A stretch of 64,000 nucleotides of DNA from a bacterium (GTDB lineage Bacteria; UBA10199; JAIBAG01), in the NCBI GenBank assembly GCA_019695305.1, contig JAIBAG010000004.1, positions 62,001 through 126,000 of the forward strand, read 5' to 3'. Positions within the stretch are counted from its first letter, which is position 1, and each line of letters starts with the position of its first letter. The notes beneath the pieces are model-generated. The model saw nothing but the letters and a program-made list of their open reading frames with translations. It was not told the origin of the DNA and searched no databases. A program made the translations under genes and the position numbers. Positions 4,778 through 62,161 of this stretch are shown here, piece by piece.

Positions 4778-6403
4778 ATGAATAAAAAAATCTTTCTTTT
4801 TCTTTTTTTGTTTCCTTTTCTTGGTTTTGCATCGGAAACGGTGATAACGCGCAATATTCCTGTTTCCGACCCCGTTTATCACGATATCGATACTTTAATT
4901 GCTCATGGTTTGGTTAAAAAAGCCATTATTGGTCAGCGGCCGTGGAGCGAAGAGCAAATCAGACGTATGTTGAAAGAAGCACAGGAGAATTCTGAAGCTC
5001 TTTGTGATAAGTTTGAAGGCGCGAAACGTGAGCGCTGTGATCGAAGAAAAGATTATGCTTCTGAATTGATTGATCATTTGAACGAACGTTTTAGACCCAG
5101 TTCCAAACCGTTTCAATTTCATCCGTTTGACTCACTAGAGGTAAACGTTACTTTTTTAGACAGCCCATGGCGGAATGTTTTAGCAACCAACGGTGTAGGT
5201 CAAATTGATGCTCGTGTAAATCCTCTAGTCGCCAATCAAAACGGAAAACATTATGTAGACGGTGCTCAATACTCCTTAGATTTAACAAGCTGGGGAGGCG
5301 ATAGTCGTTATCTTATTCTTGATTCTAAAATAGGGATTGAATCTTTATTCCCGCGAAATTCGATAAACGATGATTTTAATTTAATTCCTACTCGCCTTTA
5401 TTTAAAAAGCGGTTACAAAAATTTTTCAGTGACCATAGGTAGAGATGAAGTGATTTGGGGCCAAGGTGAAAACGGCGGACTTCTCCTTTCTAAGAACGCT
5501 CGTCCTTTGGATATGATGATGCTTACTGCCGATCATCCTTTTTATTTCCCATGGGTGTTTAAGTATTTGGGTTTGTTTAAACCTTCTCTTTTTGTGGCTA
5601 ATTTAGGCTCCGAGGATTTTGCGGACCAACCTTTTTTTACTGGACTTAAATTTACACTCAAGCCTGCATCTTTTTTTGAATTAGGTATATCGCAAGCTTT
5701 GATTATGGGTGGAAAGAACGGACCCGAAATTTCACCCGGAGAGGTATTTGGGGAATTTTTTGCTTCCCGTGGGGGATTTTTATCAACGTCGGGTATTCAG
5801 AACGAAAATTTATCAAATAGAATATATGGTTTTGATGGACGTATCAATTTTCCGTCTTCACTGCGAGGAGCTTCTCTTTATTTTGAAATGATGTCGGACG
5901 ATGCTTTTTTTAGTAGGTTTAAAACTAACTGGAGTTATCTGGGTGGCTTATACATTCCTCGTATAGATAACAAGGGCAAGTTGTCGGCTCGTGCCGAGTT
6001 TCGTTATATGGCACCAATTTTTTATCGCCATGGTGTTTTTGTTTCGGGTTATACTTTAAATAAACAAATACTTGGCGATGAGCTTGGGTCGGATGCTTAC
6101 AGTGTTTCGGGCAAGTTATATTATCATCCCTGTGATAAGACGCGTTTACGCGCTTCTCTTTACTATCAAAATCGCGATAATAATCTATGGCTTAAAACAC
6201 CCAGCTCAGAATTTGTAGTAACACTAGATACAGCTGCTGAAAAAAGAATTGGTACCAGGCTTGATGGCGATTTTAAAGTTTCTAAAAAAATCGCACTTAA
6301 TACTGGGTTGGGTTATGAACATGTCAGTAATTTTAATTCTACATCTGTCTCAAGGCATAATTTTCTTTTGAGTTCAGGACTTAAAATTAGTTTTGGGAAA
6401 TAA
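4778..6403 (+). CDS. Wzi-family capsule-assembly outer-membrane barrel
   Basis: 541 aa protein with a signal peptide (residues 1-19, cleavage expected after GFA) and a body of alternating aromatic and hydrophobic strands ending in a C-terminal strand with terminal-like aromatics, as in outer-membrane barrels. The block SVTIGRDEVIWGQGENGG followed by LLLSKNARPLDM matches my memory of the Wzi capsule-assembly family (Pfam CapAssembly_Wzi). Wzi-type proteins attach or organise capsular polysaccharide at the cell surface. It starts 2 nt after the cysS stop, so it is probably transcribed with the trp-isp-cys genes and not with the polysaccharide operon. It converges on the next gene with a 7 nt gap and no visible terminator. 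Confidence 0.8.
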   Translation: MNKKIFLFLFLFPFLGFASETVITRNIPVSDPVYHDIDTLIAHGLVKKAIIGQRPWSEEQIRRMLKEAQENSEALCDKFEGAKRERCDRRKDYASELIDHLNERFRPSSKPFQFHPFDSLEVNVTFLDSPWRNVLATNGVGQIDARVNPLVANQNGKHYVDGAQYSLDLTSWGGDSRYLILDSKIGIESLFPRNSINDDFNLIPTRLYLKSGYKNFSVTIGRDEVIWGQGENGGLLLSKNARPLDMMMLTADHPFYFPWVFKYLGLFKPSLFVANLGSEDFADQPFFTGLKFTLKPASFFELGISQALIMGGKNGPEISPGEVFGEFFASRGGFLSTSGIQNENLSNRIYGFDGRINFPSSLRGASLYFEMMSDDAFFSRFKTNWSYLGGLYIPRIDNKGKLSARAEFRYMAPIFYRHGVFVSGYTLNKQILGDELGSDAYSVSGKLYYHPCDKTRLRASLYYQNRDNNLWLKTPSSEFVVTLDTAAEKRIGTRLDGDFKVSKKIALNTGLGYEHVSNFNSTSVSRHNFLLSSGLKISFGK

Positions 6404-6410
6404 AAGATAT

Positions 6411-8309
6411 TTAATGCCGCGGGGTAAGTGGCACCACATTGCTAGTTTGAGATTCTTCGGGCAAGTCTTTATGGTTAAACTCAGTTACGATATCTTTGAT
6501 TCGTAACAGTAGTTCATCACGGTTAAATGTTTTAGCAGTTTCAATCAGCATGTCTACTTTTGTTTTAAGTTCTTCCCAATCGAGAATAGTTGTTTTTCCG
6601 ATGGTGATATTTTCGTACTGAGTTTTCTTTTCGCTTTCATCAATCAATAGTTCTTCAAACAGTTTTTCCCCCGGACGTAAACCCGTGCAAACAATATCAA
6701 TATCTTTATATGGTTCTTTTCCTGCCAGAAAGATAAGGTCTTCAGCCATTTCTTTAATTTTAACGGGGTTACCCATATTTAAAATAAAAATTTCACCGCC
6801 GTGACCAATAGAAGCGGCTTGAAGAGTTAATTCAACAGCTTCTTGAATAAGCATAAAATAGCGTACTACATCAGGATGAGTAACAGTAACGGGCCCGCCA
6901 GCATTAATTTGCTTTAAAAATTTAGGGATAACGCTACCTGATGACCCTAAAACATTGCCAAAACGCACAGCTACGAATTCGGTATTAGATCTTAAGTTTA
7001 GATTTTGGATGTAAAGCTCACAAATACGCTTAGTGGCACCCATTACGTTAGTAGGACGTACCGCTTTATCGGTTGATATTAATACAAACTTTTCGATGTT
7101 GTAATGCTGGGCAGCATTAACAAGATTAATGGTCCCTCTAACATTGTTAATCACACCAATGAAGGGGTTGTATTCAATCATGGGTACATGTTTAAACGCC
7201 GCGGCATGCAAAATGAGATCAGGTTTTTCTTCCTGTATAAGTGCATTTATGCCATGACGGTTATTAAGATCGAGTAAGGTATAGCGTAAGTTAAGATTTT
7301 GGTTAGGATAACTTTCGCGAAGAGCTTCTTCCATTTTGTAGAGGCCGTACTCGGAATTATCAAGCAAAATCACGCGCGAAGCGTTAAATCGGATAACCTG
7401 TCTGACTAACTCTGATCCAATAGAGCCCGCGGCGCCAGTAATGAGCACTTTTTTGTCTTTTATAAAACGTTCAATTTGGCGCTCGTCCAAATCTTCCGGA
7501 TTTCTTTTTAAGAGATCGGCAATGTCTATGTTTTTAATATGAACATCTTGTTTGATCATTCCCGGTAAGGTGGGAGCTATACGGCAGATAACACGCATTT
7601 TACGGCATTCTTTAACTAGTTCTCGCAAAGATTCAGGTCTAAATTTGCTGATAGCGACTATGAGTTCAGAAATTTCATAATCAGCTACGAGTTTGGCTAA
7701 TTGATTATGGGTTCCTAGTACAGGGATGTTATGAACTTTAAGTCCTACTTTGCGCTGATTATCATCAATAAAGCCAATAACGTTATAAATGTGCTTTTCT
7801 CTCATCAGACTGCGAGCTAAAGCGTCACCTACATCTCCTGCACCATAGATGAGAATGTTTTTTTCTCCTTCGGTAAACTTAAGAGTACTTTCAGTGTAGT
7901 ATCGGGGGAAAAATCGACTCAGGCTCACAAGACTCAACGAGAAAAACCAATAATTAATAAAAATATTGATCGGGAATTCAGACGAGTTAATAAAAATTAC
8001 CAAAAAAGAAGATAATAGAGCGCCTATGGAGACCGTTTTAATAAGAGTTATTGCAAAGAGAAAGCTAGCATAGCGTAAAATGACTCTGTATAGTCCCATG
8101 GCATGAAAAAGAACCATGTTAACACCCAAAAATAAGGGGACTGTTTGCATGAAAATTTTTATAAAGTCAGGAGTGGTATGGGTGTTTAATGTATAAATAT
8201 AGAGTGCCATTGCCCAAGCGATGCAAACAGAAACGCAATCACAAACAAAGAGAATGGGTTTGATAAAGCGACGGATAAAGGTGGTTATTTTATTTTTATG
8301 GTAGAACAA
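6411..8309 (-). CDS. membrane-bound nucleotide-sugar 4,6-dehydratase (FlaA1/PglF/WbpM/CapD family)
   Basis: 632 aa. The N-terminus has four hydrophobic segments (about residues 13-135), then a nucleotide-binding fold with GAGDVGDALA (156-165) and a second Rossmann domain with TGAAGSIGSEL (291-301). The catalytic region reads STDKAVRP (412-419) and MGATK (423-427). Met in place of the usual SDR Tyr is typical of this family. Known members convert UDP-GlcNAc to a 4-keto-6-deoxy sugar, an entry step to QuiNAc, FucNAc and bacillosamine, so it probably feeds the adjacent glycan locus. The start codon is TTG at 8309, supported by GAGGA at 8319-8315 with 5 nt spacing; no ATG is better placed. It is transcribed opposite to its neighbours. 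Confidence 0.9.
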   Translation of the reverse strand: MFYHKNKITTFIRRFIKPILFVCDCVSVCIAWAMALYIYTLNTHTTPDFIKIFMQTVPLFLGVNMVLFHAMGLYRVILRYASFLFAITLIKTVSIGALLSSFLVIFINSSEFPINIFINYWFFSLSLVSLSRFFPRYYTESTLKFTEGEKNILIYGAGDVGDALARSLMREKHIYNVIGFIDDNQRKVGLKVHNIPVLGTHNQLAKLVADYEISELIVAISKFRPESLRELVKECRKMRVICRIAPTLPGMIKQDVHIKNIDIADLLKRNPEDLDERQIERFIKDKKVLITGAAGSIGSELVRQVIRFNASRVILLDNSEYGLYKMEEALRESYPNQNLNLRYTLLDLNNRHGINALIQEEKPDLILHAAAFKHVPMIEYNPFIGVINNVRGTINLVNAAQHYNIEKFVLISTDKAVRPTNVMGATKRICELYIQNLNLRSNTEFVAVRFGNVLGSSGSVIPKFLKQINAGGPVTVTHPDVVRYFMLIQEAVELTLQAASIGHGGEIFILNMGNPVKIKEMAEDLIFLAGKEPYKDIDIVCTGLRPGEKLFEELLIDESEKKTQYENITIGKTTILDWEELKTKVDMLIETAKTFNRDELLLRIKDIVTEFNHKDLPEESQTSNVVPLTPRH

Positions 8310-8512: not shown

Positions 8513-10009
8513 ATGAAAAATTTTTTTTTGCTAATTCTTGGCAATGTAATGCGACTTTTATTGGTAGTGTTTTTTTTAAATGTGAGTTGCTCTTCAAATA
8601 AATCAACAACGTCAGAATCTCCTTCTTCTAGTGAAGACTACAGTAGTTTCTTTATTCCTTCCGATAACTTTTATTACGATGACCAAGTTATTAATGATGA
8701 ATTATCTCAATTTGTTGATGAGGGTACAGAAATTGAAATTAATAACAATTTAGTTACTGTGCACGGAGACCTGACAGTTCCCGAAGATGACAGCATTAAT
8801 TTATCGGGCGATATAGCTCTTGTTGTAGAGGGTAGTGTTTATGCTTGTAGATGTCACATTTTTGAAAATATTTATGATATAAAAATAAACAATGAGACCA
8901 CGCTTAATCCTGTTTATCCCGAATGGTGGGGAGCAGAAGCTTCAGATGCAAATCCTGCTTTAAACAAATGGGCTATTCGACAGGCGATCGATTCATTAAG
9001 CATTAATGGTGGTACTATTGAACTAGATAGTGGTGAATATGTTATTTCAGGTCAATTAAGAATTTCCGATGATAATATCACTATTGTAGGTGTTGAAGAC
9101 CAAACAATGCTAAAGGCTACTTCGGGCAATTCTAGCTTTTTAACACGAGATGCTATTTTGGGGGATGGTTCTATCTCTGTTGAAAATGGGACTCTATTTC
9201 AAGCTGGTGGAAATTTTTTTTTACGAGATGATACTTCTACTGAGGGCTACAAAAACTTTTTGGGTAAGATAGATCATGTTGTTGGAAATGAAATATTTCT
9301 GGTTAGAAATATAAATGATTCTTTTTTTGTTTCTCAAAATTCTGTTATATCAAGCACGTTTCCTGTGATGACCATTGATTCATCAAATAACATTGCCATT
9401 CGAGATTTAATGATAGATGGAAATAAAAATGATGCAGGAATACAATCATGGTATCTTGCAGGTATAGTGGTTTCTCATTCGACAGATGTTACTATTGATA
9501 ACGTAGAAATTAGCGATGCGGGTTATGAAGGAATAACTTTGATCGCCAATGAAGATGTTACTGTAACGAACAGCAAAATTATTGGAAGTAAAAATGACGG
9601 TATTCACTTGGGCAGTGCCAGAAATAATATTATTGATAACAATACTATTATTTTTTCAGGTGCAGATGGTGTATATTTTTGCGATGACAATCTCAATGTT
9701 GAAGTATCAAATAACACTATAGCTAATTCCAGCGCCTATGGCATTGGAGGTATTGGTTCTTGGGGTAGAGGTAGCGATATCAGTCCTATAGATAGACTTG
9801 TTACTCTTGATAACAACATAATATTTAACAGTGGCTATTCTGGAATAGGTGTTCTTGAAGCTGATTCTATTTCTATCACTAGTAACATAATTTATAGTAG
9901 CTCTCAAAGTCAGCCTCATAATTGTGGTATATATGTAAGCCGATCACAAAATATAACAATTTCCTCTAATTCAGTATACGATCACCAGGAAGGTGCTGAG
10001 TGTTATTAA
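8513..10009 (+). CDS. putative lipoprotein with right-handed beta-helix (pectate-lyase-3 like)
   Basis: 498 aa. A hydrophobic signal (residues 3-24) ends in LNVSC with Cys26, an acceptable but not perfect lipobox, followed by a Ser/Thr-rich linker. From about residue 135 the PEWWGA motif and the following WAIRQAID resemble the entry of pectate_lyase_3 domains. The rest is Asn/Asp/Ser-rich with many N-N-T-I and S-S-N steps, typical of parallel beta-helix coils. Such folds occur in polysaccharide lyases, epimerases and depolymerases. No catalytic residues could be assigned. The gene looks more AT-rich than its neighbours and has two T9 runs (8521-8529 and 9214-9222). The helix stops without a clear cap, so C-terminal loss is possible. 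Function unknown. Confidence 0.7.
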   Translation: MKNFFLLILGNVMRLLLVVFFLNVSCSSNKSTTSESPSSSEDYSSFFIPSDNFYYDDQVINDELSQFVDEGTEIEINNNLVTVHGDLTVPEDDSINLSGDIALVVEGSVYACRCHIFENIYDIKINNETTLNPVYPEWWGAEASDANPALNKWAIRQAIDSLSINGGTIELDSGEYVISGQLRISDDNITIVGVEDQTMLKATSGNSSFLTRDAILGDGSISVENGTLFQAGGNFFLRDDTSTEGYKNFLGKIDHVVGNEIFLVRNINDSFFVSQNSVISSTFPVMTIDSSNNIAIRDLMIDGNKNDAGIQSWYLAGIVVSHSTDVTIDNVEISDAGYEGITLIANEDVTVTNSKIIGSKNDGIHLGSARNNIIDNNTIIFSGADGVYFCDDNLNVEVSNNTIANSSAYGIGGIGSWGRGSDISPIDRLVTLDNNIIFNSGYSGIGVLEADSISITSNIIYSSSQSQPHNCGIYVSRSQNITISSNSVYDHQEGAECY

Positions 10010-10090: not shown

Positions 10091-10120
10091 TTGACGTTTT
10101 ATACTTAATTAACTTATAGA
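10091..10120 (+). promoter_or_regulatory. candidate sigma-70 promoter of the 51-kb operon
   Basis: TTGACG at 10091-10096 is a 5 of 6 match to the -35 consensus. TTATAG at 10114-10119 (17 nt spacing) or TATAGA at 10115-10120 (18 nt) is the matching -10. A start near 10127 would give a leader of about 75 nt that includes the hairpin and ops element before the first codon. A second TATAAT at 10079-10084 lacks a -35 at usable spacing. Evidence is by eye only. Confidence 0.45.
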
Positions 10121-10166: not shown

Positions 10167-10182
10167 TCTATCATTCGATAGA
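10167..10182 (+). other. leader hairpin directly before ops
   Basis: TCTATC and GATAGA form a perfect 6-bp inverted repeat around an ATTC loop, ending 2 nt before the ops core. JUMPstart regions of known polysaccharide operons also carry small stem-loops near ops, so this may be part of the recruitment signal. The stem is AT-rich and weak. Confidence 0.4.
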
Positions 10183-10184
10183 GT

Positions 10185-10195
10185 GGCGGTAGCCT
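10185..10195 (+). promoter_or_regulatory. ops/JUMPstart core element (RfaH recruitment site)
   Basis: GGCGGTAGCCT. The first eight bases are the invariant ops core, and the T at position 11 also matches the consensus as I know it (GGCGGTAGnnT). GCGGTAGC can form the small non-template hairpin read by RfaH. It lies about 60 nt after the predicted transcription start and 6 nt before the TTG start of the first gene of a 51-kb polysaccharide operon. An RfaH-like gene lies at 61652-62161. No other copy was seen in the window. The position, sequence and partner gene together make this a strong call. Confidence 0.8.
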
Positions 10196-10200
10196 AAGAA

Positions 10201-11973
10201 TTGCAACCTTCTATTTTAAAAAAAATATTATTCTTACTTCAAGCGCCTAATAGAAAAATAAAGCCAACACTTATTTTTCTTATACTGATTGGCATGATGT
10301 TGGAGACTTTGGGGGTGGGGTTAATTATTCCGGCCTTGGCTGTTATGGTTGATCCGAGTCAGGTGGCTAAAATTTCTTTTTTTCAGCCTTTCATTAAAGG
10401 GGCCGGGAGTCAGACCGAGCTTGTTGTTATCGGGCTAGTTTCATTATTGGTTGTCTATGCCGTTAAAGCAGGGTTTCTCGCTTTTTTATCCTGGTATCAA
10501 TCCGGTTTTGCATACAGAGTACAGGCCAGTCTTTCTCAGGAGCTTTTTTCCGGATATTTACGCCAGCCTTATACGTTTCATCTACAACGTAATTCTTCCG
10601 AACTTATTCGGAATGTTATTAACGAAACCAATCATTTTACTTTTAATGTGATGAATATGGGGATTACCCTTTTAACCGAAATTTTTGTGGTGCTGGGTAT
10701 TGCCGTTCTACTTGTTTACGTTGAGCCCATTGGTGCACTTTGGGTGGTGAGTGTGCTGGGTCTGGCTGTGTATGTTTTTCATGCTTTTACCCGGTCACGC
10801 ATATCGCGTTGGGGAGAGGCCAGACAGTTTCATGACGGCCTTCGCATTCAGCATCTTCAGGAGGGATTAAACGGTGTAAAGGATGTTAAAATACTGGGAA
10901 GGGAAGATTCTTTTTTATCCCAATACGCAGTTCATAATGTGGGCAATGCCGATGTGGGCAAGAAACAATATACCTTGCAGTCTCTTCCCCGGTTATGGCT
11001 GGAGTTTTTAGCTGTTGTGGGACTCGTATTAATTGGTTTCACAATGCTGGTTCAGGGAAAGCCCATGACGTCTCTTTTGCCTACTATGGGTTTATTTGCT
11101 GCCGCTGCTTTTCGTTTAATGCCTTCCGTAAACAGAATTTTAAATACGATACAGAGTTTACGTTTTTCTTATCCTGTTATTAATGTTTTATATACCAGCC
11201 TCAAAGAATTTAAAACTATTCCTCCTGCTGTATCTTCCGGGAAATTGTCTTTTGCTCATGACATCAAACTGGAAAATATAAGTTACATTTATCCCGAATC
11301 CAGTCATGTTGTTTTACAAAATGTAAACATGACTGTTAAAAAAGGTTCCTGTATTGGAATTATAGGTGGTAGCGGTGCCGGCAAGAGCACTTTTGTTGAT
11401 TTGATTTTGGGTTTGTTAACGCCCATCAGTGGAAAAATAATGGTGGATGGTTTGGATATACAGTCTAATATACGAGATTGGCAGGATCAAATAGGGTATG
11501 TGCCTCAAAATATTTATTTGACGGATGATACAATTAAAAACAATGTAGCCTTTGGTTTAAAAAATGATGAAATTGATGAGGCGGCTATAGAAAAAGCGAT
11601 TAAGGCCGCCCAGTTGGATGAGTTTGTACGTAGTTTGCCAGAAGGTTTAAATACTATTGTGGGTGAAAGAGGGGTTCGTTTATCGGGAGGACAGTGTCAG
11701 AGAATTGGAATTGCCCGTGCCCTTTATCGTGACCCTCCTGTATTGATACTGGACGAAGCGACTAGTGCCCTGGATACTAAAACAGAAAAAGAAGTGATGA
11801 CAGCCGTTGATGCACTAAAAGGGAAAACGCTTTTTATTGTGGCTCACAGGCTTACCACTCTTAAGCATTGTGATTTGATTGTGAAGCTTGAAAAAGGCCA
11901 GATAGCAGATACCGGTCTTTACGATCATTTTGTTAATGAGCAAAGTTTGTTTCAAAAAAATATAGCAGGATAA
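10201..11973 (+). CDS. ABC-type lipid-linked oligosaccharide flippase (PglK-like)
   Basis: 590 aa half-transporter with an N-terminal six-helix membrane domain and a C-terminal ATPase: Walker A GGSGAGKST near residue 385, signature LSGGQCQRIGIARAL near 490, Walker B VLILDEATSALD near 514, and an H-loop AHRLTT near 547. The early ETLGVGLIIPAL segment, FRLMPSVNRI and QIGYVPQNIYL resemble Campylobacter PglK, which flips undecaprenyl-linked oligosaccharide. It is the only flippase candidate in the locus, since no MATE-type Wzx was found. The start is TTG at 10201, with no good Shine-Dalgarno, directly behind ops. That fits RfaH-linked translation activation, but it also leaves the exact start open. 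Confidence 0.85.
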   Translation: MQPSILKKILFLLQAPNRKIKPTLIFLILIGMMLETLGVGLIIPALAVMVDPSQVAKISFFQPFIKGAGSQTELVVIGLVSLLVVYAVKAGFLAFLSWYQSGFAYRVQASLSQELFSGYLRQPYTFHLQRNSSELIRNVINETNHFTFNVMNMGITLLTEIFVVLGIAVLLVYVEPIGALWVVSVLGLAVYVFHAFTRSRISRWGEARQFHDGLRIQHLQEGLNGVKDVKILGREDSFLSQYAVHNVGNADVGKKQYTLQSLPRLWLEFLAVVGLVLIGFTMLVQGKPMTSLLPTMGLFAAAAFRLMPSVNRILNTIQSLRFSYPVINVLYTSLKEFKTIPPAVSSGKLSFAHDIKLENISYIYPESSHVVLQNVNMTVKKGSCIGIIGGSGAGKSTFVDLILGLLTPISGKIMVDGLDIQSNIRDWQDQIGYVPQNIYLTDDTIKNNVAFGLKNDEIDEAAIEKAIKAAQLDEFVRSLPEGLNTIVGERGVRLSGGQCQRIGIARALYRDPPVLILDEATSALDTKTEKEVMTAVDALKGKTLFIVAHRLTTLKHCDLIVKLEKGQIADTGLYDHFVNEQSLFQKNIAG

Positions 11974-21198: not shown

Positions 21199-21945
21199 AT
21201 GGTAACACAAAACTTGGATTTTTTAGTGAATGTAAAAGGTTTGAATGATTTGCCTCAAAAGAGGCAAATCATTCAAACATTGCTTAAAGAAATTGGTTTT
21301 TGCGTCATTCGCGGTGTATTTAATCCTGAAGAAGTTATTTCCGAATACAAGAAGCACTATTCTTACTTTAAATCTTCTGAAGATCTACGCCGAAGCGGCC
21401 CTATTGTAGAGCGTATGAAAAACTTTCAGCGTGTGGATTGTGGAGATTATTCTCAATGTAATGCAAGGCTTAGTCGGATGTTTACACGTTTTTTTTGGAA
21501 TCCGGACGATACGTTTTCCTGGTGTTTTAAAGTTCTCCAGCAACTCAGAGATATTTTAACCGAGCGTAAGGTTGCTTACTCAGACGGGATGTATACTTTA
21601 AATGGTACCAAGTATTATGAGTTTCCCAAGATACTCCATTATCCTGTAGGTGGAGGATTTATGAATGAGCATTTTGATGCCTATAATAACGATGGTATTT
21701 TCAATATTGGTATGTCTGTGACCCGAAAAGGGATTGATTACAAAGCGGGTGGAGTTTATTATAAAAGAAAAACTGGTGAAGAAATTTTAATCGATGATTT
21801 TTCTCAGCCGGGGGATATTTATATTCACGATGCTCAGGCAGTGCATGGTGTTCACGCTATTGATTCCGATTGCCCTCTTGATTTGTCTACTATGGCAGGT
21901 CGTGTTACTCTTATTTTATCAAGTGAGTCTTTTCCTACATCCTAA
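21199..21945 (+). CDS. 2-oxoglutarate/Fe(II)-dependent oxygenase (PhyH-like)
   Basis: 248 aa non-heme iron oxygenase. The facial triad is visible as His158 and Asp160 in NEHFDAY and His216 or His219 in VHGVHAID, with Arg235 in GRVTL as the likely 2-oxoglutarate anchor. The fold resembles phytanoyl-CoA dioxygenase-like proteins. It probably hydroxylates, or otherwise oxidises, a glycan precursor or lipid; the substrate is unknown. The start ATG at 21199 lies 7 nt after the methyltransferase stop. A perfect 18-bp inverted repeat with an AAAA loop lies 40 nt into the coding region, and encodes LNDLPQKRQIIQ without disrupting the frame. Confidence 0.8.
   Translation: MVTQNLDFLVNVKGLNDLPQKRQIIQTLLKEIGFCVIRGVFNPEEVISEYKKHYSYFKSSEDLRRSGPIVERMKNFQRVDCGDYSQCNARLSRMFTRFFWNPDDTFSWCFKVLQQLRDILTERKVAYSDGMYTLNGTKYYEFPKILHYPVGGGFMNEHFDAYNNDGIFNIGMSVTRKGIDYKAGGVYYKRKTGEEILIDDFSQPGDIYIHDAQAVHGVHAIDSDCPLDLSTMAGRVTLILSSESFPTS
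21239..21278. repeat. perfect 18-bp inverted repeat, AAAA loop
   Basis: The left arm is 21239-21256, the loop 21257-21260 and the right arm 21261-21278. Checked base by base, the right arm is the exact reverse complement of the left (GTTTGAATGATTTGCCTC). No T-run follows, so it is not a standard terminator. In RNA it would be a very stable hairpin starting 40 nt after the start codon of the oxygenase gene. Confidence 0.9.
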
Positions 21946-50935: not shown

Positions 50936-51709
50936 ATGGTGCAAAATTTTAAAAATGTTACTGAAATAGCGGGTGAAAAAGTGTCTCAGGCTCAGTTGTG
51001 CCGTGTTGTTCAACGGTATGTATGGGCGGGCGGTTATTGTCATAATAAAGATGTTTTAGAAATAGCCTGTGGTGTGGGGCAGGGGCTTGGCTATTTGGCT
51101 TCTGTCTCTCGCAGTATACGGGCCGGTGATATCACACCCGATCTGGTTTTACAGGCGCGGGCCCATTATGGGAACCGCATTTCTATTACCGAAATGGATG
51201 CCGAACATCTGCCATTTGATGATTCCAGTCTGGATGTTGTTATTTTATTTGAAGCTATTTATTACCTTCCTTCTGCCAAGCAGTTTATTCAGGAGTGCAA
51301 GCGGGTTTTGCGTCCCGGGGGTGTGGTTTTGATAGCCACAGCCAATAAAGATCTGTTCGATTTTAACCCCAGCCCTTATTCCACTCACTATTATGGTGTT
51401 GTTGAACTCAATGCCCTGCTTCAATCTTTGGGGTTTTCCTGTGTTTTTCTGGGAAATCTCTCTGAAACTGCTCTTGGATTAAAGCAAAAAATAATTCGCC
51501 TGATTAAAAAACTTGTTGTAGCTCTTAATCTGATGCCGAAAACGATGTCGGGCAAAAAGTGGCTCAAGCGTATTTTTTTTGGGGAGTTATTGCCTATGCC
51601 GGCAGAAATAGATATTCATACGGCGCCGTATGTTCCTCCGGTGGCTATTTCTTCCCATGAGCCCAGCCGGTGTTCAAATGTGCTGTATGTTGCAGCTACT
51701 AAAGTTTGA
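50936..51709 (+). CDS. class I SAM methyltransferase
   Basis: 257 aa. VLEIACGVGQGLGYLA is motif I, RAGDITPDLVLQARAHYG II, DAEHLPFDDSSLDVVILFEAIYYL IV, and VLRPGGVVLIATANK V. Methyltransf_11 type. Between GT4 and aminotransferase genes, 3 nt after the GT4 stop. Acceptor unknown. Confidence 0.85.
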   Translation: MVQNFKNVTEIAGEKVSQAQLCRVVQRYVWAGGYCHNKDVLEIACGVGQGLGYLASVSRSIRAGDITPDLVLQARAHYGNRISITEMDAEHLPFDDSSLDVVILFEAIYYLPSAKQFIQECKRVLRPGGVVLIATANKDLFDFNPSPYSTHYYGVVELNALLQSLGFSCVFLGNLSETALGLKQKIIRLIKKLVVALNLMPKTMSGKKWLKRIFFGELLPMPAEIDIHTAPYVPPVAISSHEPSRCSNVLYVAATKV

Positions 51710-51723
51710 CGGGATTTTAAGTT

Positions 51724-52836
51724 ATGAAAAAAAGAGATATTCCATTTTTTAATTACCCTCACATTTTTAAAGAGCATGACGAGGATTATTCCCGGGTGCT
51801 TACCGAAACATGTCGCCGGGGCGCCTATATCATGCAGCAGGAGCTTTTTGAGTTTGAGAAGCAGCTGGGGCAATTTTTAGGCGTTAAGCATGTGCTGGGA
51901 ACGGCTGACGGTACAATGGCTTTAATGATGGCGCTTAAGGCTGTGGGCATTAAACCGGGGGATGAGGTGATTGTTCCTACCCATACCTTTGTGGCAACGG
52001 CCGCCGCCGTTGATCATGTGGGGGCAAAGCCCGTTCTGGTGGATTGTGCTAGAGATCACTTGATTGATGCGGACGATGTAAAACGTAAAATAACCAAGCG
52101 GACGCGTGCCATTATGCCAGTTCAGCTTAACGGTCGCACCGCCAACATGGAGCCTGTTACAAAATTAGCCCAAAATCACAATTTGGTGATTGTGGAGGAT
52201 TCTTGTCAGGCACTTGGTTCAAAATTTAAAAATAAATTTGCCGGCACCTTTGGTGCCGCCGGAGCATTTAGCTTTTATCCCTCAAAAACATTAGGCTGTT
52301 TTGGAGACGGAGGAGCAGTAATTACAAACGATGATGAAGTGGCTACAATATTAAAGCTGTTGCGCGATCATGGTCGTGGCGACGACGGAAAAGTATGGAT
52401 GTTTGGCTATAATTCACGACTAGACAATATCCAGGCTGCCATTTTACTACTTAAGTTAAAAAGATACCCCGAAGCCATTGCCAAAAGGCGCGCTTTGGCG
52501 ATGCGTTATCAAAATGCTCTTAAAGACATCAAAGAAGTGCTTTTACCTCCTGCTCCTGATGCCGATGATGCCCACTTTGATATTTACCAAAACTACGAAA
52601 TTGAGGCCGAAAATCGCGAAAAATTACGCTTTTTTTTGGAAGAAAACGGTATTAAAACAATTATTCAATGGGGGGGGCATCTTATTCACCAGTTTGAGAA
52701 GCTGGGGCTTAATACCGATGTTCCTTACGCCGAAGCCATGAGTAAAAAATACATGTTATTGCCTATGCACACGGCTTTGACCGATGACGATGTGGATTAT
52801 GTTTGTGAAAAAATAGTAGAGTTTTATAAAAAATAG
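51724..52836 (+). CDS. DegT-family sugar aminotransferase
   Basis: 370 aa. PLP lysine is Lys188 in FSFYPSKTLGCFGDGG, the ArnB/FdtB-like form. GTADGTMALMMALKAVGIKPGDEVIVPTHTFVATAAAV, and C-terminal IIQWGGHLIHQ. Sugar-nucleotide substrate unknown: 3- or 4-keto sugar. Followed by a TylF-type methyltransferase and split transketolase, so an amino sugar with methylation or branching is possible. A G8 run encodes WGGH at 52670-52677. It has a good GAT-rich start with a 14 nt gap before it. Confidence 0.88.
   Translation: MKKRDIPFFNYPHIFKEHDEDYSRVLTETCRRGAYIMQQELFEFEKQLGQFLGVKHVLGTADGTMALMMALKAVGIKPGDEVIVPTHTFVATAAAVDHVGAKPVLVDCARDHLIDADDVKRKITKRTRAIMPVQLNGRTANMEPVTKLAQNHNLVIVEDSCQALGSKFKNKFAGTFGAAGAFSFYPSKTLGCFGDGGAVITNDDEVATILKLLRDHGRGDDGKVWMFGYNSRLDNIQAAILLLKLKRYPEAIAKRRALAMRYQNALKDIKEVLLPPAPDADDAHFDIYQNYEIEAENREKLRFFLEENGIKTIIQWGGHLIHQFEKLGLNTDVPYAEAMSKKYMLLPMHTALTDDDVDYVCEKIVEFYKK
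52670..52677 (+). repeat. G8 homopolymer in aminotransferase gene
   Basis: Eight consecutive G at 52670-52677 encode the Gly-Gly of QWGGH. The motif itself is conserved in the family, so the run is partly forced by the protein, but both glycine codons being GGG in an AT-rich gene leaves a slippage-prone tract. A one-base change would truncate the C-terminal 60 residues. Confidence 0.7.
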
Positions 52837-52845
52837 AAAGTAACT

Positions 52846-53628
52846 ATGAAAAAATCCTCTCAATCAAAAAAAGCAGGGCAAATTCATGTAGAAGGTGGGC
52901 TTAGAACTTCTGCCGAAAAAGACGAAGCGAAAAAAAATGCTGCCTGTTTTGATAGAAATCCGGAGTCGTGGGGAAAAAAAATAGAGAATTTCCCCAAATA
53001 TGTGCGTCGCCAGAATATCACCCGTTTTTTGGCACTCTACGAAATTTTCAAGCGTGTTCTGCCTGTAAAAGGCTCTATTGTAGAATGTGGAGTTTTTCGC
53101 GGTTTTGGCTTAATGAGCTGGTCAAAGTTCAGTGCTATTTTAGAGCCTGTTAATTTAACTCGTCGCATTTATGGTTTTGATTCTTTTGCTGGTTTTCCTG
53201 AGATATCCAAAGCCGATATGTCGGCCAAAAGTAATCATGTGAAGCATGGTGATTTGCACGCCGATTCTTATGAAGAATTAAAAGAATTGATTGCCATTCA
53301 TGATTCTACCCGTTTTTTAGGACATGTTCCCAAAACAAATCTTATTCGCGGAAATGCCACCAAAACCATTCCGGCTTTTGTTAAGGAAAATCCTCATTTG
53401 GTGGTGAGTTTGCTTTTTATGGATTTTGATCTTTATGAACCTACCAAAATAGCTTTGGAACATTTTGTTCCACGTATGCCTAAAGGAGCGGTGATTGCTT
53501 TTGATGAACTTGATAACCCTCTATGGCCAGGTGAAACTCTGGCTATGCTAGAGCATTTTAAGAAATCTCCCTTAAAGCTCGAGCGCGTGGAATTTGATCC
53601 TTATATCAGTTTTGCTGTTCTTGATTAA
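52846..53628 (+). CDS. TylF/MycF-type sugar O-methyltransferase
   Basis: 260 aa. GSIVECGVFRGFGLMSW, IYGFDSFAGFPE, LIRGNATKTIPAFVKENP and SLLFMDFDLYEPTKIALEHFVPRMPKGAVIAFDELDNP match TylF-type metal-dependent O-methyltransferases (macrocin O-methyltransferase family), where the DxD and later Asp bind magnesium. An N-terminal Lys/Ala-rich extension of 40 residues is longer than usual. Acceptor would be a glycan or nucleotide sugar. Overlap with neighbours is none; gaps are 9 and 2 nt. Confidence 0.86.
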   Translation: MKKSSQSKKAGQIHVEGGLRTSAEKDEAKKNAACFDRNPESWGKKIENFPKYVRRQNITRFLALYEIFKRVLPVKGSIVECGVFRGFGLMSWSKFSAILEPVNLTRRIYGFDSFAGFPEISKADMSAKSNHVKHGDLHADSYEELKELIAIHDSTRFLGHVPKTNLIRGNATKTIPAFVKENPHLVVSLLFMDFDLYEPTKIALEHFVPRMPKGAVIAFDELDNPLWPGETLAMLEHFKKSPLKLERVEFDPYISFAVLD

Positions 53629-53630
53629 TT

Positions 53631-54455
53631 ATGATAACGAAAAAAAATCATAACACTGTAGATCTGGCTCAAAAAATCAGAATGGATATTCTGGAGATGA
53701 CTAGTCGCGGGAATAGCTCGCATATCGGGTCGTGTTTTAGCCAAGTGGATATTTTAGCAGTGCTTTATGGTGCTATTCTTCAGGTTGACCCGCAAAATCC
53801 CCGCTGGGAAAATCGTGATCGTTTTATTTTAAGTAAAGGCCATGCTGGCGCCTCGGTATATGCGACATTGGCTGAATGCGGTTTTTTTAAAACCGATAAA
53901 CTCTTAACCCATTATCAGGACGGTTCCGATTTGAGTGGCCATGTGAGTCATAAAGGAATTCCGGGCGTTGAATTGTCAACTGGAAGTCTGGGACATGGGC
54001 TGGGAGTTGGTGTAGGAATGGCCAAGGCTGCCAAAATGGACGGAAAATCATGGCGTACTTTTGTGATGATGTCGGACGGCGAATGCGATGAAGGATCTAA
54101 CTGGGAAGCTGTTTTGTTTGCTTCTCACCACAAGCTTGATAATTTAATAGCAATTGTTGATTATAATAAAATTCAAAGTTTAGCGCCTGTGGCCGAAACG
54201 CTGGCTCTAGAACCTTTTGCTGATAAATGGAAGGCTTTTGGATGGCAGGTTAAAGAAGTGGATGGTCATGATCATGACGCCTTAACTGATGTTTTTTCCG
54301 GACTTTCTGCGTCTTCCGGAAAACCAACCGTTATATTGGCCCATACAATCAAGGGTAAGGGAGTTTCGTTTATGGAGCACAGTGTGCTTTGGCATTATCG
54401 TTCTGCACAGGGTGAAGAATTTGCCGCGGCTAAAAAGGAGTTACTGACTAAGTGA
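53631..54455 (+). CDS. transketolase-like subunit, thiamine-diphosphate domain
   Basis: 274 aa, the N-terminal half of a split transketolase. Seen: GNSSHIGSCFSQVDILAVLY, SKGHAGASVY, ELSTGSLGHGLGVGVGMAKA and the thiamine motif SDGECDEGSNWE through IAIVDYNK. The partner subunit follows with a 4 nt GTGA overlap. Transketolase transfers a two-carbon unit between sugars; split versions often occur in biosynthetic clusters and may act on nucleotide-linked or unusual sugars. Substrate here unknown. Confidence 0.9.
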   Translation: MITKKNHNTVDLAQKIRMDILEMTSRGNSSHIGSCFSQVDILAVLYGAILQVDPQNPRWENRDRFILSKGHAGASVYATLAECGFFKTDKLLTHYQDGSDLSGHVSHKGIPGVELSTGSLGHGLGVGVGMAKAAKMDGKSWRTFVMMSDGECDEGSNWEAVLFASHHKLDNLIAIVDYNKIQSLAPVAETLALEPFADKWKAFGWQVKEVDGHDHDALTDVFSGLSASSGKPTVILAHTIKGKGVSFMEHSVLWHYRSAQGEEFAAAKKELLTK

Positions 54456-55378
54456 GAGATTATTTTATTAAACGGCTGACAGAACTGGCCTCTGCCGATA
54501 AACGTATTGTTCTTATTACGGGAGATTTGGGCTTTGGAGTTTTTGACAATTACAGAGCTCAATTACAGTCACAGTTTATTAATGCAGGAGTTGCTGAGCA
54601 AAATATGACGGCTTTGGCAACCGGTATGGCGATGGAAGGTAAAATTGTTTTTACCTATTCTATAGCAAACTTTCCTACACTACGCTGTTTAGAACAGATT
54701 CGCAACGATGCCTGTTATCATAATGCTAACGTCAAGGTTGTTTCTATTGGCGGAGGTTTTAGCTATGGAGCTTTGGGGATTTCTCACCATGCTACAGAAG
54801 ATCTGGCTATTCTTCGCAGTCTTCCCGATATTACTGTAGTTGCTCCATGTGGTTTGTGGGAAACCGTAGAAGCGACCTCTGCTCTTGTGCTTCGTGAAGG
54901 AGCCTGTTATCTCCGTTTAGATAAATCGTTTGGCGAAGATGCGCCTCGGGCCAACGAAGTATTTACTTTGGGTAAGGCCAGGGTATTAAAGGAAGGAAAC
55001 GATATTTCTTTTGTTGTTTGCGGAGGTATTTTAAAAGAAGTTCAGTCAGCCGCCGATATTTTGGCCAAAAAGGGTATTAACGCGCGTATTATTTCCATGC
55101 ATACCATCAAGCCTCTTGATAAAGATATTTTGACCAGGGCCGCAAAAGAAACAGGAGGTATTGTTACTGTTGAAGAACATACCCTGCATGGCGGGCTTGG
55201 AAGCGCCGTTGCCGAGCATTTGATGGATTCGGGAATTTATCCTGAAAAGTTTAAAAGAATTGCTCTGGAAGCCGGTTTTTCTTCCCTGGTAGGTTCGCAA
55301 GAGTATTTGCGAAAACAATATAAACTAGAAGCAGATAGCATAGCCAATAAGGTAGAGCATTTGCTTTCGAGGGGATGA
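54452..55378 (+). CDS. transketolase-like subunit, pyrimidine-binding/C-terminal domain
   Basis: 308 aa partner of the previous gene. FINAGVAEQNMTALATGMA contains the Glu that activates thiamine; FTYSIANFPTLRCLEQIRND and GALGISHHATEDLAILRSLPDITVVAP are the central part, and the transketolase C-terminal domain (IISMHTIKPLD, VTVEEHTLHGGLGSAVAE) follows. Start is GTG at 54452. Together the two genes make one complete enzyme, compatible with DXS-like and E1-like relatives, though the HATED and EEH blocks favour transketolase. Confidence 0.9.
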   Translation: MRDYFIKRLTELASADKRIVLITGDLGFGVFDNYRAQLQSQFINAGVAEQNMTALATGMAMEGKIVFTYSIANFPTLRCLEQIRNDACYHNANVKVVSIGGGFSYGALGISHHATEDLAILRSLPDITVVAPCGLWETVEATSALVLREGACYLRLDKSFGEDAPRANEVFTLGKARVLKEGNDISFVVCGGILKEVQSAADILAKKGINARIISMHTIKPLDKDILTRAAKETGGIVTVEEHTLHGGLGSAVAEHLMDSGIYPEKFKRIALEAGFSSLVGSQEYLRKQYKLEADSIANKVEHLLSRG

Positions 55379-56124
55379 TGAGAATTAAACGTTTTTTTGA
55401 TTTTATTGTTAGTGGTTTAGCGTTGCTTCTGGTGGGGCCTTTTCTTGTTATTGTGATGTTTGCGATTTATTTACAAGATCGCCACTCTCCCATTTATAAG
55501 GCAACACGTGCTGGGAAAAACGGCAAACCTTTCGTGATGTACAAAATTCGTTCTATGGTTGTAAATGCAGAAACGCTGGGTGGCAGTTCTACAGGGAATG
55601 CTGATCCGCGTATTACAGCTATAGGCCGATTTGTTAGAAAATATAAGTTAGATGAGCTTTCGCAGTTATGGAATGTATTTACTGGAGATATGTCGCTGGT
55701 GGGGCCACGACCTAATACGGTGAACGATATAAAATTTTATACACAGGAAGAAAATGAGCTGTTAAGTATTGTTCCTGGAATTACCGATTTTTCTTCTATT
55801 GTTTTTGCCGACGAGGGCGCTATTCTTGAAAATAAACAAAACCCCGATCTTGCTTATAACCAGCTTATTCGCCCCTGGAAAAGCAGGCTCGGGATTTTTT
55901 ACTGTAAAAATCGTTCTTTCATCCTGGACTTAAAATTGATTTTTTTGACGTTAGTAACTATTGTAAACCGTTCTATGGCTTTAAGCCTAGTTCAGCGAAT
56001 TCTTCTTGATTTGGGGGCGCCTGATGATTTAGTGCGGATTGCGAGCAGAAAGGAAAGTCTTATGCCTTTTCCTCCGCCAGGAATGGAGCAGATAGTGAAA
56101 GCCGGTTTCGGTATGCCTCTTTAA
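55375..56124 (+). CDS. undecaprenyl-phosphate sugar-1-phosphate transferase (initiating enzyme)
   Basis: 249 aa bacterial sugar transferase of the WcaJ/PglC type. RIKRFFDFIVSGLALLLVGP is a single re-entrant hydrophobic helix, followed by KIRSMVVNAETLGGSSTGNADPRITAIGRF, DELSQLWNVFTGDMSLVGPRP and VPGITDFSSIVF. It lacks the long N-terminal membrane domain of full WbaP/WcaJ, so it is the minimal form. It transfers a hexose- or HexNAc-1-phosphate from UDP sugar to undecaprenyl phosphate, starting repeat-unit assembly. Overlaps the transketolase gene by 4 nt. Confidence 0.9.
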   Translation: MMRIKRFFDFIVSGLALLLVGPFLVIVMFAIYLQDRHSPIYKATRAGKNGKPFVMYKIRSMVVNAETLGGSSTGNADPRITAIGRFVRKYKLDELSQLWNVFTGDMSLVGPRPNTVNDIKFYTQEENELLSIVPGITDFSSIVFADEGAILENKQNPDLAYNQLIRPWKSRLGIFYCKNRSFILDLKLIFLTLVTIVNRSMALSLVQRILLDLGAPDDLVRIASRKESLMPFPPPGMEQIVKAGFGMPL

Positions 56125-56154
56125 GGTGTTTTTAATTAAATTTTATCAGAATTC

Positions 56155-57456
56155 ATGACCATGAAAGATAATCAGGAAACCATTGTTGCTGTAGTAGGGC
56201 TTGGCTATGTGGGTTTACCTTTAGCTGTTGCTTTTGGGAAATTGGGTAGAGTTATTGGTTTTGATTTGTCAGAAGAAAAAGTAGCTTCCTATAAGAAGTG
56301 TGTAGATCCTGCTGATGAGGTAACAGAAAGTGAATTTCGTGACGCTTCTTCTCTGGAGTTTACCGCGGATTCTAAAAAATTAAGTGAGGCTAATGTTTTT
56401 ATTGTGGCTGTTCCAACTCCCGTTGATGAAGCCTATAAGCCTGATTTTGCTCCACTTGTTTCGGCCAGCCGTTTAATTGGACAAAATATGAGGCAGGGGA
56501 GCCTCGTTATTTATGAATCTACGGTTTACCCTGGTGCGACCGAAGAAGTGTGTATTCCTGTTTTAGAAAAAGAATCGGGAATGAAATGGCAGAAAGATTT
56601 TCGAGTGGGTTATTCTCCTGAGCGTATTAATCCAGGAGATAAAGAACACGTTTTGTCTAATACCATCAAAATAGTATCGGGTGATAGACCTGAAACTCTG
56701 GATGAAGTAGCTCAATTATATAATCGTGTGGTTAAGGCTGGAGTGTTTAAAGCTTCTTCCATTCAGGCTGCTGAAGCGGCAAAAGTTATAGAAAATACAC
56801 AACGTGATTTGAATATTGCATTAATGAATGAGTTGGCCATTATTTTTAACCGGATGAATATTGATACGATGGAAGTGTTAAAGGCAGCAGGTACAAAATG
56901 GAATTTTTTGCCTTTTCGCCCTGGTTTGGTAGGCGGGCACTGTATTGGTGTTGACCCTTATTATTTGACTTACAAAGCGGAAGTAATAGGATACCATCCC
57001 CAGGTTATTTTGGCGGGCAGAAGAATTAACGATGGGATGGCTAAGTTTGTGGCCGAAAGTACGGTTAAAGAATTGATTCAATCGGGAAGCGGTGTGAAAG
57101 GCGCCAAAGTGAATGTTTTGGGGCTGTCATTTAAGGAGAATTGTCCGGATTTACGTAATTCAAAAGTAGTGGACATGATTCGAGAACTGGAATCTTTTGG
57201 GTTGAAAGTAGCTGTGAACGATCCCTTAGTTAGCCCGCAGGAAGCTTTACGGGAATATGAGCTTTCTTTAACGGCTTGGGATAATTTGTCAAAGGCAGAA
57301 GTTCTTGTTTTGGCTGTTGCCCATAAAGAATATTTGAAATTTTCATTGGAAGAATTAACGCGTCAGTTGCTACCCAATGGTTGTATTATTGATGTTAAAT
57401 CTCAGCTTGATGCGGATAAATTGCGTAAAATGGGCTACAGGGTATGGCGCTTATAA
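56155..57456 (+). CDS. UDP-sugar 6-dehydrogenase (TviB/WbpO type)
   Basis: 433 aa. VVGLGYVGLPLAVAFGKLG for NAD, FIVAVPTPVDE, YESTVYPGATEEVC, SPERINPGD and GGHCIGVDPYYL with catalytic Cys263. The N-terminal GRVIGFDLSEEKV and PDEVTESEF forms are those of UDP-HexNAc dehydrogenases (TviB, WbpO, WbtA-neighbour types), which make UDP-HexNAc uronic acids, rather than of Ugd. A separate Ugd is at 62158. It provides the uronic acid that asparagine-synthase-like proteins may amidate. The start follows a 30 nt gap. Confidence 0.88.
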   Translation: MTMKDNQETIVAVVGLGYVGLPLAVAFGKLGRVIGFDLSEEKVASYKKCVDPADEVTESEFRDASSLEFTADSKKLSEANVFIVAVPTPVDEAYKPDFAPLVSASRLIGQNMRQGSLVIYESTVYPGATEEVCIPVLEKESGMKWQKDFRVGYSPERINPGDKEHVLSNTIKIVSGDRPETLDEVAQLYNRVVKAGVFKASSIQAAEAAKVIENTQRDLNIALMNELAIIFNRMNIDTMEVLKAAGTKWNFLPFRPGLVGGHCIGVDPYYLTYKAEVIGYHPQVILAGRRINDGMAKFVAESTVKELIQSGSGVKGAKVNVLGLSFKENCPDLRNSKVVDMIRELESFGLKVAVNDPLVSPQEALREYELSLTAWDNLSKAEVLVLAVAHKEYLKFSLEELTRQLLPNGCIIDVKSQLDADKLRKMGYRVWRL

Positions 57457-57477
57457 TCCAGAAGGTAAAATTTTCTT

Positions 57478-58656
57478 ATGTCATCTGAATCAGATAGTGA
57501 AATCAATCTCCTAGATGGTCTTAATATAATTTTCCGTTGGAAAATTTTTATAGTTACTTTTGTTTTTCTTGTAACAACAGCATCTATTTTCATATCTCTT
57601 CTTTTGCCCAAATATTACAAGGCTGAGGCGACTTTGCTACCAATGGGGGGAGGTGCAGAAGGTGGTGCAGGTATGATGAGTATGATGCTTTCTGCTCAAT
57701 TTGGTTTGGGTGGAGGATTGGGAGGAAATAGTGCTTCGGCGCAACTTTTACCAATATTAACAAGCAAGATTTTGGCTGTAAAAGTTATTAATAAGTATAA
57801 CTTTTTGCCTGCAATCTATCCAAATTATTGGGACGAAAAAAACAAAACGTGGAAACCCGAAGCTAAAGATAAAATCAAAGATTACGATAATATTGTTGAA
57901 AAGTTTTTTTCGATGCTGACAATTACAGATGATAAGAAAAAGCAAATTATTACTCTGAGGGCGGTTACGCTTGATCCAAAACTTTCTGCAGAACTAGTTA
58001 ATAGTTACATTTTTGAGTTTCAAAATGAACTTGAACAAAATACTTATACATCGTCCAAAAGAAATCGTATTTTTATAGAGCAGCAACTTCAGGAAATGCA
58101 GCGGATGTTTCTTAATGCGGGTAAAGAGTTGTCTTCTTTTTATAATAATGAAACCATTTCCAGTGAGAACCCATTTGTAGATGTGGATGTTACCGCGGGG
58201 GGGGGAGAAGATCATGCTAAATCAGAGCAACCTGTTTTTGCTAGCGAGCAGGTTCCTGGTGCTAATGGCCCTCCCATATTGCAAAGTGTCATCAATAATA
58301 ATCAGTCTTTATACTCAAAGTTAGCCGATGTGAAGAGTGCTAATAATAATCAATTGGCTCATCAAATACCGCAGCAGACGTATTTTCAATATTTAGCGGG
58401 CAAGCAAAAGGAAAGTGAGCAAATGCTCATGGTTTTGGCTCAAAAGTATCAAGTTGCAAAAATTGAAGAGGCAAAAGAAGATTTAAACTTTAAAGTTATA
58501 GACTGGGCACAGGTTCCGGCGAAAAAGTTTAAACCAGCTAGAAGTAGGATTGTTATTGTCACTTTTATGATGTCAAGCTTCGTTGCCATTTTTCTGGTTT
58601 TTTTACTCGAGTATTTAAAAAATAATCGGCAAAAAATAAAAGTATTTGAAAAGTAA
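57478..58656 (+). CDS. Wzz-like chain-length determinant (polysaccharide co-polymerase)
   Basis: 392 aa. Two membrane segments (residues about 20-45 and 355-378) flank a periplasmic domain with coiled-coil content; INLLDGLNIIFRWKIFIVT at the start and PAKKFKPARSRIVIVTF before the second segment are typical. A glycine-rich stretch at residues 55-85 is unusual. No cytoplasmic tyrosine kinase domain, unlike Wzc. Controls glycan chain length together with Wzy. A G9 homopolymer lies inside the gene at 58197-58205. AAGGT upstream of the ATG. Confidence 0.8.
   Translation: MSSESDSEINLLDGLNIIFRWKIFIVTFVFLVTTASIFISLLLPKYYKAEATLLPMGGGAEGGAGMMSMMLSAQFGLGGGLGGNSASAQLLPILTSKILAVKVINKYNFLPAIYPNYWDEKNKTWKPEAKDKIKDYDNIVEKFFSMLTITDDKKKQIITLRAVTLDPKLSAELVNSYIFEFQNELEQNTYTSSKRNRIFIEQQLQEMQRMFLNAGKELSSFYNNETISSENPFVDVDVTAGGGEDHAKSEQPVFASEQVPGANGPPILQSVINNNQSLYSKLADVKSANNNQLAHQIPQQTYFQYLAGKQKESEQMLMVLAQKYQVAKIEEAKEDLNFKVIDWAQVPAKKFKPARSRIVIVTFMMSSFVAIFLVFLLEYLKNNRQKIKVFEK
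58197..58205 (+). repeat. G9 homopolymer in wzz-like gene
   Basis: Nine consecutive G encode the end of Ala and Gly-Gly-Gly in VTAGGGED, around residue 240 of the Wzz-like protein, in a linker-like segment. A gain or loss of one G would cut off the last third of the protein, including the second membrane segment. Such tracts are slippage-prone in AT-rich genomes. Confidence 0.75.
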
Positions 58657-58670
58657 TAGCAGGGATTAAT

Positions 58671-61647: not shown

Positions 61648-61651
61648 TTCT

Positions 61652-62161
61652 TTAAGCTACTCTAATCTTCTCAATCTCCGACCAATGCAGCGTTGCTTTT
61701 AAATTGTAGTTAATCATATTTAAAAGCACAATCACACGCTCATCGTCCGAGCTTTTCTTTTCAATAATTCCCTCCAAATCGGCCAGCATTCCTTTTTTTA
61801 CTCTTACCTTTTCCCCTTTTTCTACCGTCATAGGCTGTTCCACATAGCCTTTATCATTCATTTTACTTTTGATAGCATTCACTACTTCATCAGGTACGGC
61901 AACTGGCTTATTTTCTGCACACAAGATATGAGAAACGCCACGTGTATATTTAATCAGATGTATGTTTGAAGGATTGGTGAAGTCGATATAGATAAAAAGG
62001 TAACCTGGGAAAAGAGGTTTAACGTTTAAGTGCGTAGCGCGCAGTTTATGCTGAACTTGACGGATGCGAGGGAGAAAAGATTTAAAATGTGCACGCGTAA
62101 GTAGATTGTGCACATCCAGTTCGCGATGAGATTTGGTTTTAATTACAAACCATTGATTCAT
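61652..62161 (-). CDS. rfaH: RfaH-like transcription antiterminator
   Basis: 169 aa NusG paralogue. WFVIKTKSHRELDVHNLL starts the NGN domain; PLFPGYLFIYID (residues 49-60) and TRGVSHIL (73-80) closely resemble RfaH, in which the same PLFPNYLF and TRGVSH blocks occur and the Arg contacts ops DNA. A KOW-type C-terminus follows from about residue 115 (VEKGEKVRVKKGMLADLEG) and LLNMINYNLK matches the RfaH end. It would bind RNA polymerase paused at ops and prevent termination. It is in a two-gene operon with ugd (4 nt overlap) and opposite to the operon it should control. Confidence 0.87.
   Translation of the reverse strand: MNQWFVIKTKSHRELDVHNLLTRAHFKSFLPRIRQVQHKLRATHLNVKPLFPGYLFIYIDFTNPSNIHLIKYTRGVSHILCAENKPVAVPDEVVNAIKSKMNDKGYVEQPMTVEKGEKVRVKKGMLADLEGIIEKKSSDDERVIVLLNMINYNLKATLHWSEIEKIRVA

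Follow-up and report, generated by a model that had tools for sequence, protein, structure and literature searches.

The window, by which we mean the whole 64,000-nt stretch of contig JAIBAG010000004.1 analysed here, is dominated by 48 co-directional open reading frames (ORFs) on the forward strand, which extend over 51.4 kb from position 10201 to position 61647 and bear out the 48-gene, 51-kb operon described in the first-pass annotation. The gene calls leave no intergenic gap larger than 98 nt within this array, and it is from this gene spacing that we infer an operon. Pfam assigns to it NeuB, two CMP-sugar synthetases, three DegT aminotransferases, glycosyltransferases, two asparagine-synthase-like amidotransferases, a split transketolase, a bacterial sugar transferase (Bac_transf), an SLBB-domain export protein and nucleotidyltransferases (NTP transferases), contents that identify a surface-polysaccharide locus. 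The first gene (10201–11973, plus strand) encodes a PglK/MsbA-like ABC exporter, and the last, mannose-1-phosphate guanylyltransferase-like, closes a right-hand module (50936–61647, plus strand), most genes of which are common to a related genome, G004, described below. On the left flank, the gene of a PglF/WbpM-like nucleotide-sugar dehydratase (6411–8309, minus strand), assigned by Pfam and found conserved by comparison with G004, is preceded by a Wzi-like gene (4778–6403), with cysS and ispDF also before it. A parallel beta-helix protein gene (8513–10009) stands between the WbpM-like gene and the operon leader and is absent at that place in G004. Promoter- and terminator-like matches inside the operon are mostly at chance level; one operon gene (21199–21945), which has no Pfam match, contains an 18-bp perfect hairpin, GTTTGAATGATTTGCCTC-TTTT-GAGGCAAATCATTCAAAC (21239–21278, minus strand).

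Immediately upstream of the first gene, positions 10185–10195 of the plus strand carry GGCGGTAGCCT, an ops-like RfaH recruitment element, followed by AAGAA and by the TTG start at 10201, which confirms a spacing of 6 nt between element and gene. The nine-nucleotide ops core GGCGGTAGC is exact (10185–10193) and T11 is also kept; position 12, the second base of the T11 G12 pause dinucleotide, is A in place of the usual G, and positions 13–14 are AG. G12, which promotes the pause, is kept in the ops of all relatives that have the site. The bases read by RfaH, G4–G8, and the C3:G8 stem are intact. Folded as single-stranded DNA, the region forms a 3-bp GGC/GCC stem within ops, with GGTA in the loop, alongside an upstream hairpin (z −2.5), and the shape of the ops fold matches that in the E. 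coli RfaH–ops crystal, where C3 is paired with G8 and T6 is flipped out (PMC5995543). The upstream hairpin, a small one in the first-pass annotation, is a perfect TCTATC-ATTC-GATAGA with a 6-bp stem and a 4-nt loop just 5′ of ops (10167–10182, plus strand), and it has no counterpart in the G004 leader.

A promoter had also been placed upstream of ops. A sigma70-like match, TTGACG and TATAGA separated by an 18-nt spacer, can indeed be read at 10091–10120 (plus strand), and would leave a leader of ~58 nt before ops; because the consensus promoter scan lists no plus-strand promoter at this place, we regard it as a weak promoter and as a candidate only. The TTG start without a clear Shine–Dalgarno sequence, previously noted as expected for RfaH-aided translation, is a property of the window that does not generalise, as Shine–Dalgarno-like sequences lie near the first start in G004 and in several relatives. 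Across the whole 2.78-Mb genome, GGCGGTAGNNT occurs 18 times and the reversed control pattern 22 times. Many unrelated ops copies had been named as an outcome that would speak against a regulatory unit; among the other 17 copies of this 11-mer, 15 fall within ORFs and the remaining two form the arms of a single terminator-like hairpin (contig C8), and only the window’s copy heads an operon. The number of exact matches expected on the plus strand of the 191-nt leader is 6e-4 for GGCGGTAGNNT and 1.3e-4 for GGCGGTAGCNT.

At the far end of the operon, 4 nt past its last stop codon, lies the gene of a 169-residue RfaH-like NusG paralog (61652–62161). The gene and its PLFPGYLF and TRGVSH blocks had been recognised in the first pass, which left unstated that it is encoded on the minus strand and is convergent with the operon. 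Directly upstream of it, co-oriented and with a 4-nt overlap, is ugd, encoding a UDP-glucose/NDP-sugar dehydrogenase (62158–63468, minus strand); G004 has the same ugd–rfaH pair, and in G006, G007 and G029 a ugd-like 3′ end lies ahead of rfaH. The ugd coding sequence contains a strong terminator-like hairpin with a T-run (GCCGATCCTCGCATAGGATCGGC TTTTTTATTT; 62723–62745, minus strand), which, being upstream of rfaH within its own transcript, could attenuate rfaH.

The best-scoring NusG-superfamily model for the protein is TIGR01955, the RfaH equivalog (111.7 bits, E 3e-32), though the protein falls short of the 144.5 bits set as curated cutoff for this model; the cutoffs of the UpxY model NF033644 (83 bits versus 100) and the LoaP model NF033641 (73.8 bits versus 125) are not reached either. 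In the tree, the RfaH-like proteins of the class form one group (92/90), in which the window protein is sister to that of G004 (97/89), and the housekeeping NusG proteins of the class form a separate, distant clade (100/100). The placement among housekeeping NusG that had been named as refuting is not seen, and the other such outcome that was checked, ops copies elsewhere in the genome, does not refute the pair either. The Rho-contact loop of NusG, I-F-G, is lost as well: it is M-I-N in the window, and IFG occurs in no class member. On these two grounds, the separate clade and the absent Rho loop, the view that the protein is a housekeeping NusG was rejected. Three of the four ops contacts (K10, H20, R23 and R73) are present in the window, in which H20 is replaced by leucine; all class members have K10 and R73, H20 and R23 vary, and H20 is replaced in most members. 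F56, T72-R73-G74 and R138 are kept, with the exception of L075, which has alanine at T72. E48 is lysine in the window and lysine, alanine, serine or threonine in the class, so the autoinhibitory bridge between E48 and the retained R138 is missing from the whole class. AlphaFold2 predicts a confident NGN domain and two C-terminal helices (125–134 and 139–151) at low confidence (pLDDT about 61–70); the model of a relative with the rfaH–ops type of locus has the same low-confidence helical C-terminal part as the window’s convergent-type protein, so that the comparison, made to see whether either is a non-switching barrel, did not tell the two apart. Among known folds the closest is that of E. coli RfaH in complex with ops DNA (5ond). 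We call the product an RfaH-like NusG paralog that probably acts in the manner of RfaH, and do not class it as strictly RfaH, because it scores under the equivalog cutoff and is devoid of H20 and E48, yet keeps K10, R23, F56, R73 and R138 and matches the RfaH fold.

No housekeeping nusG was found in the window’s own assembly (G000, 95.6% complete). The idea that the RfaH-like protein is the genome’s only NusG was rejected, as rpoB and rplK are likewise missing from this assembly; the joint absence of nusG, rplK and rpoB is consistent with a single contig having been left unbinned. In several relatives nusG is on a separate contig of ~15 kb.

The same bracket recurs in another family of the order, on contig MGRJ01000024 of Deltaproteobacteria bacterium RIFCSPHIGHO2_02_FULL_40_28 (G004). 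To the left of the locus stand counterparts of the window’s ispDF, cysS, Wzi-like and WbpM-like genes, followed by an ops, GGCGGTAGCATG, that overlaps the ATG of the first gene; this ops is complete; the window’s may be a weaker version of the element. The G004 operon is ~62 kb long, almost entirely co-directional and unlike the window’s in contents, up to a right-hand module in which the gene order is that of the window (27–72% identity) and beyond which lie a convergent rfaH (50% identity) and ugd (61%). The ends of the locus are thus conserved between the two genomes and the middle is variable, an arrangement typical of O-antigen and capsule loci. The convergent ends are separated by a 4-nt gap in the window (61647–61652) and overlap by about 17 nt in G004 (C24:89528–89544), which leaves no room for a terminator between operon and rfaH. 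One may speculate that a termination-resistant polymerase could run antisense into rfaH–ugd and damp its own activator, a form of negative feedback.

The comparison was extended by searching PF02357 in 60 relatives, with the class represented by 46 genomes, the window’s own included. An RfaH-like paralog alignable to the window’s is encoded in 26 of the 46, besides or apart from housekeeping nusG. A noncoding ops, the coding or noncoding status of each site resting on ORF calls, precedes a gene array in 23 of the 23 paralog-positive genomes that could be tested (G002, G007 and G008, with rfaH near contig ends, were left out), and the array is of polysaccharide type wherever its genes were inspected. 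In most relatives ops lies directly beside the rfaH-like gene, in the order rfaH–ops–operon. A scan near rfaH-like genes with the bare 9-mer GGCGGTAGC recovered exact matches downstream of the gene and on the same strand in 17 genomes, at 48–245 nt in 16 of them and at 900 nt in one; the chance of at least 14 such rfaH-adjacent matches is ~1e-36. Beyond the 9-mer used as query, all 17 sites have G at position 12 and Y at position 13, and 14 of them have C at position 14, so that they match the extended E. coli ops pattern. Around the housekeeping nusG genes of the class, 175 kb of strand sequence contained no GGCGGTAGC.

G12 is present in five distal ops sites as well. Besides the G004 site, ops away from rfaH stands 7.3 kb downstream before a nucleotide-sugar operon (G006), 9 kb downstream before a polysaccharide operon (G029), 65 kb away before an ABC exporter–NeuB-like operon (G028) and, in G035, at the head of a polysaccharide operon on another contig. 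G016 has, in addition to its first ops, a distal one ahead of a winged-helix/epimerase operon. The distance between ops and rfaH in G035 and G016 implies action in trans. The first-pass description of the locus as a self-contained unit accordingly holds for this sub-lineage only; in most relatives the order is rfaH–ops–operon, and ops may also be far from rfaH. Where the paralog is absent (20 genomes), 30 of the 31 ops-like 12-mers inspected (GGCGGTAGCNYG) are inside ORFs, and the lone exception, GGCGGTAGCGCG in G042, is part of a different palindrome. Whole-genome counts of the ops 12-mer do not differ from those of reversed controls, and it is therefore position alone that is informative.

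Two further observations concern the genes around these sites. A small winged-helix regulator (...TISQRQLAKATGISIGVVNAVLRKM...) often comes first or early among the genes that follow ops, giving the order rfaH–ops–wHTH–polysaccharide genes (loci L060, L065, L067, L072, L112 in G029 and L248 in G016). In G006 (L055), downstream of rfaH and before the operon headed by the distal ops, is an apparent toxin–antitoxin pair, recognised by eye from short antitoxin-like and PIN-like ORFs.

We consider that the window holds an RfaH-type, operon-specific elongation and recruitment unit, with a probability of roughly 0.85. The two parts themselves, their co-occurrence and placement across the class, the G004 layout and the loss of the Rho loop are the observations on which this reading is built. 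The earlier proposal that ops and the RfaH-like protein work together gains support from the comparative evidence, namely the 23 testable relatives and the whole bracket in G004. Homology with E. coli RfaH leads one to expect binding, pausing, processivity and ribosome recruitment here as well. RNA polymerase, having started upstream of 10185, would slow over the ops-like element, where the RfaH-like protein would use its NGN domain to read the small hairpin formed by the exposed non-template GGCGGTAGC; the protein would then stay on the polymerase, exclude NusG and Rho and accompany it across the whole 51-kb, 48-gene polysaccharide operon, perhaps also aiding ribosome loading at the weak TTG start of the first gene.

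The absence of G12 raises the alternative that the window’s ops is decaying and recruits poorly, with the operon expressed largely without the RfaH-like protein. None of the 17 rfaH-adjacent sites departs from G12 and the five distal ones have it too, every E. coli ops target validated by experiment carries TG at positions 11–12, and the E. coli G12C substitution abolishes the U11 pause in vitro (PMC5995543). In the same experiments, however, RfaH was still recruited to G12C when transcription was slow (PMC5995543), G4–G8 and the C3:G8 stem are intact in the window, and an operon with no gap above 98 nt would suffer strong polarity if unaided, which makes decay unlikely. Little credence is likewise given to the possibility of a non-switching, constitutively active RfaH homolog with no need of ops for loading, as a 2026 preprint proposed for homologs whose genes adjoin their operons (PMC13015549). 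Such a homolog would account for the replacement of E48 in every class member and of H20 in most, and for a gene beside a long polysaccharide operon, but it leaves unexplained why ops is kept base for base beside cis-encoded genes; the AlphaFold C-terminal part is, at low confidence, a helical pair and not a barrel, and since the window’s rfaH is transcribed away from the operon, co-transcriptional loading in cis is impossible. That the ops match is a coincidence, with the RfaH-like protein acting elsewhere or through another signal, is very improbable: the 18 ops-like 11-mers in the genome are no commoner than the reversed control and the window copy is without G12, but only 1e-4 to 6e-4 matches are expected in the leader, the other copies fall in ORFs or terminator arms, ops sites in the relatives go with the presence of the paralog, and the corresponding position of the G004 locus carries an ops as well.

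The unit thus favoured shares with E. coli RfaH, for which the reference is a 12-nt ops and the target operons rfb, waa, kps and tra, an NGN–KOW NusG paralog, the ops core GGCGGTAGC with T11, a long surface-polysaccharide target operon, the residues K10, R23, R73, F56 and R138 and the loss of the Rho loop. It differs from it in sequence (identity 28% or less), in three substitutions (H20 to L, R16 to D and E48 to K), in an ops without G12, and in gene position: E. coli rfaH is monocistronic and far from its targets, whereas the window gene adjoins its target operon in convergent orientation. Like Bacteroides UpxY, the window protein is a NusG paralog dedicated to a polysaccharide operon and encoded at the same locus; unlike upxY genes, which reside inside their operons (PMC7593976), its gene faces the operon from the far end. 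LoaP of Bacillus and TaA of Myxococcus are also specialised NusG paralogs next to long biosynthetic operons, although theirs are polyketide operons (PMC7593976, PMC7819879). The monomorphic RfaH homologs resemble the class proteins in missing some key ops-binding residues and in being encoded beside long envelope operons, but they are reported to be ops-independent (PMC13015549), whereas the class keeps an exact ops beside the gene.

The ops–RfaH mechanism is already known from E. coli; here the pair is found in an uncultured lineage far from E. coli. In a search of GTDB contigs, the window protein alone returned no match. Elsewhere, ops lies about 100 nt downstream of rfaH-like genes in Alphaproteobacteria and unassigned MAGs, and 66 nt downstream in Oceanospirillaceae. 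In Nitrospira (L184, L194, L215) an exact ops is found about 88 nt upstream of the rfaH-like gene, in reversed order compared with the class, which suggests that this gene may be the first of its own target operon. RfaH was found in 23 phyla in a 2020 survey, which described as unknown how NusG paralogs are recruited if their genes lie within or next to the target operon (PMC7593976); in the limited literature searched, we found no description of ops beside such operon-encoded rfaH-like genes. We tentatively propose, at somewhat less than even odds, that the RfaH-like proteins encoded beside operons in the class, in some Alphaproteobacteria, in Nitrospira and in others are recruited by an E. 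coli-type ops despite having no E48 and mostly no H20. In the published evolutionary order, action in cis came first, without ops, and ops and autoinhibition were then acquired together. If our proposal is true, ops recruitment would be ancient, preceding or independent of E. coli-style autoinhibition and trans action, which would contradict that order of events, and the window and G004 would represent a derived arrangement, the gene having moved to a place behind the operon, facing it. The rfaH-adjacent ops of 17 genomes, together with those in Alphaproteobacteria, Nitrospira and Oceanospirillaceae, would then offer a testable answer to how such paralogs are recruited, namely by the same ops code, and the class would supply natural RfaH variants that apparently read ops with K10 and R73 alone conserved.
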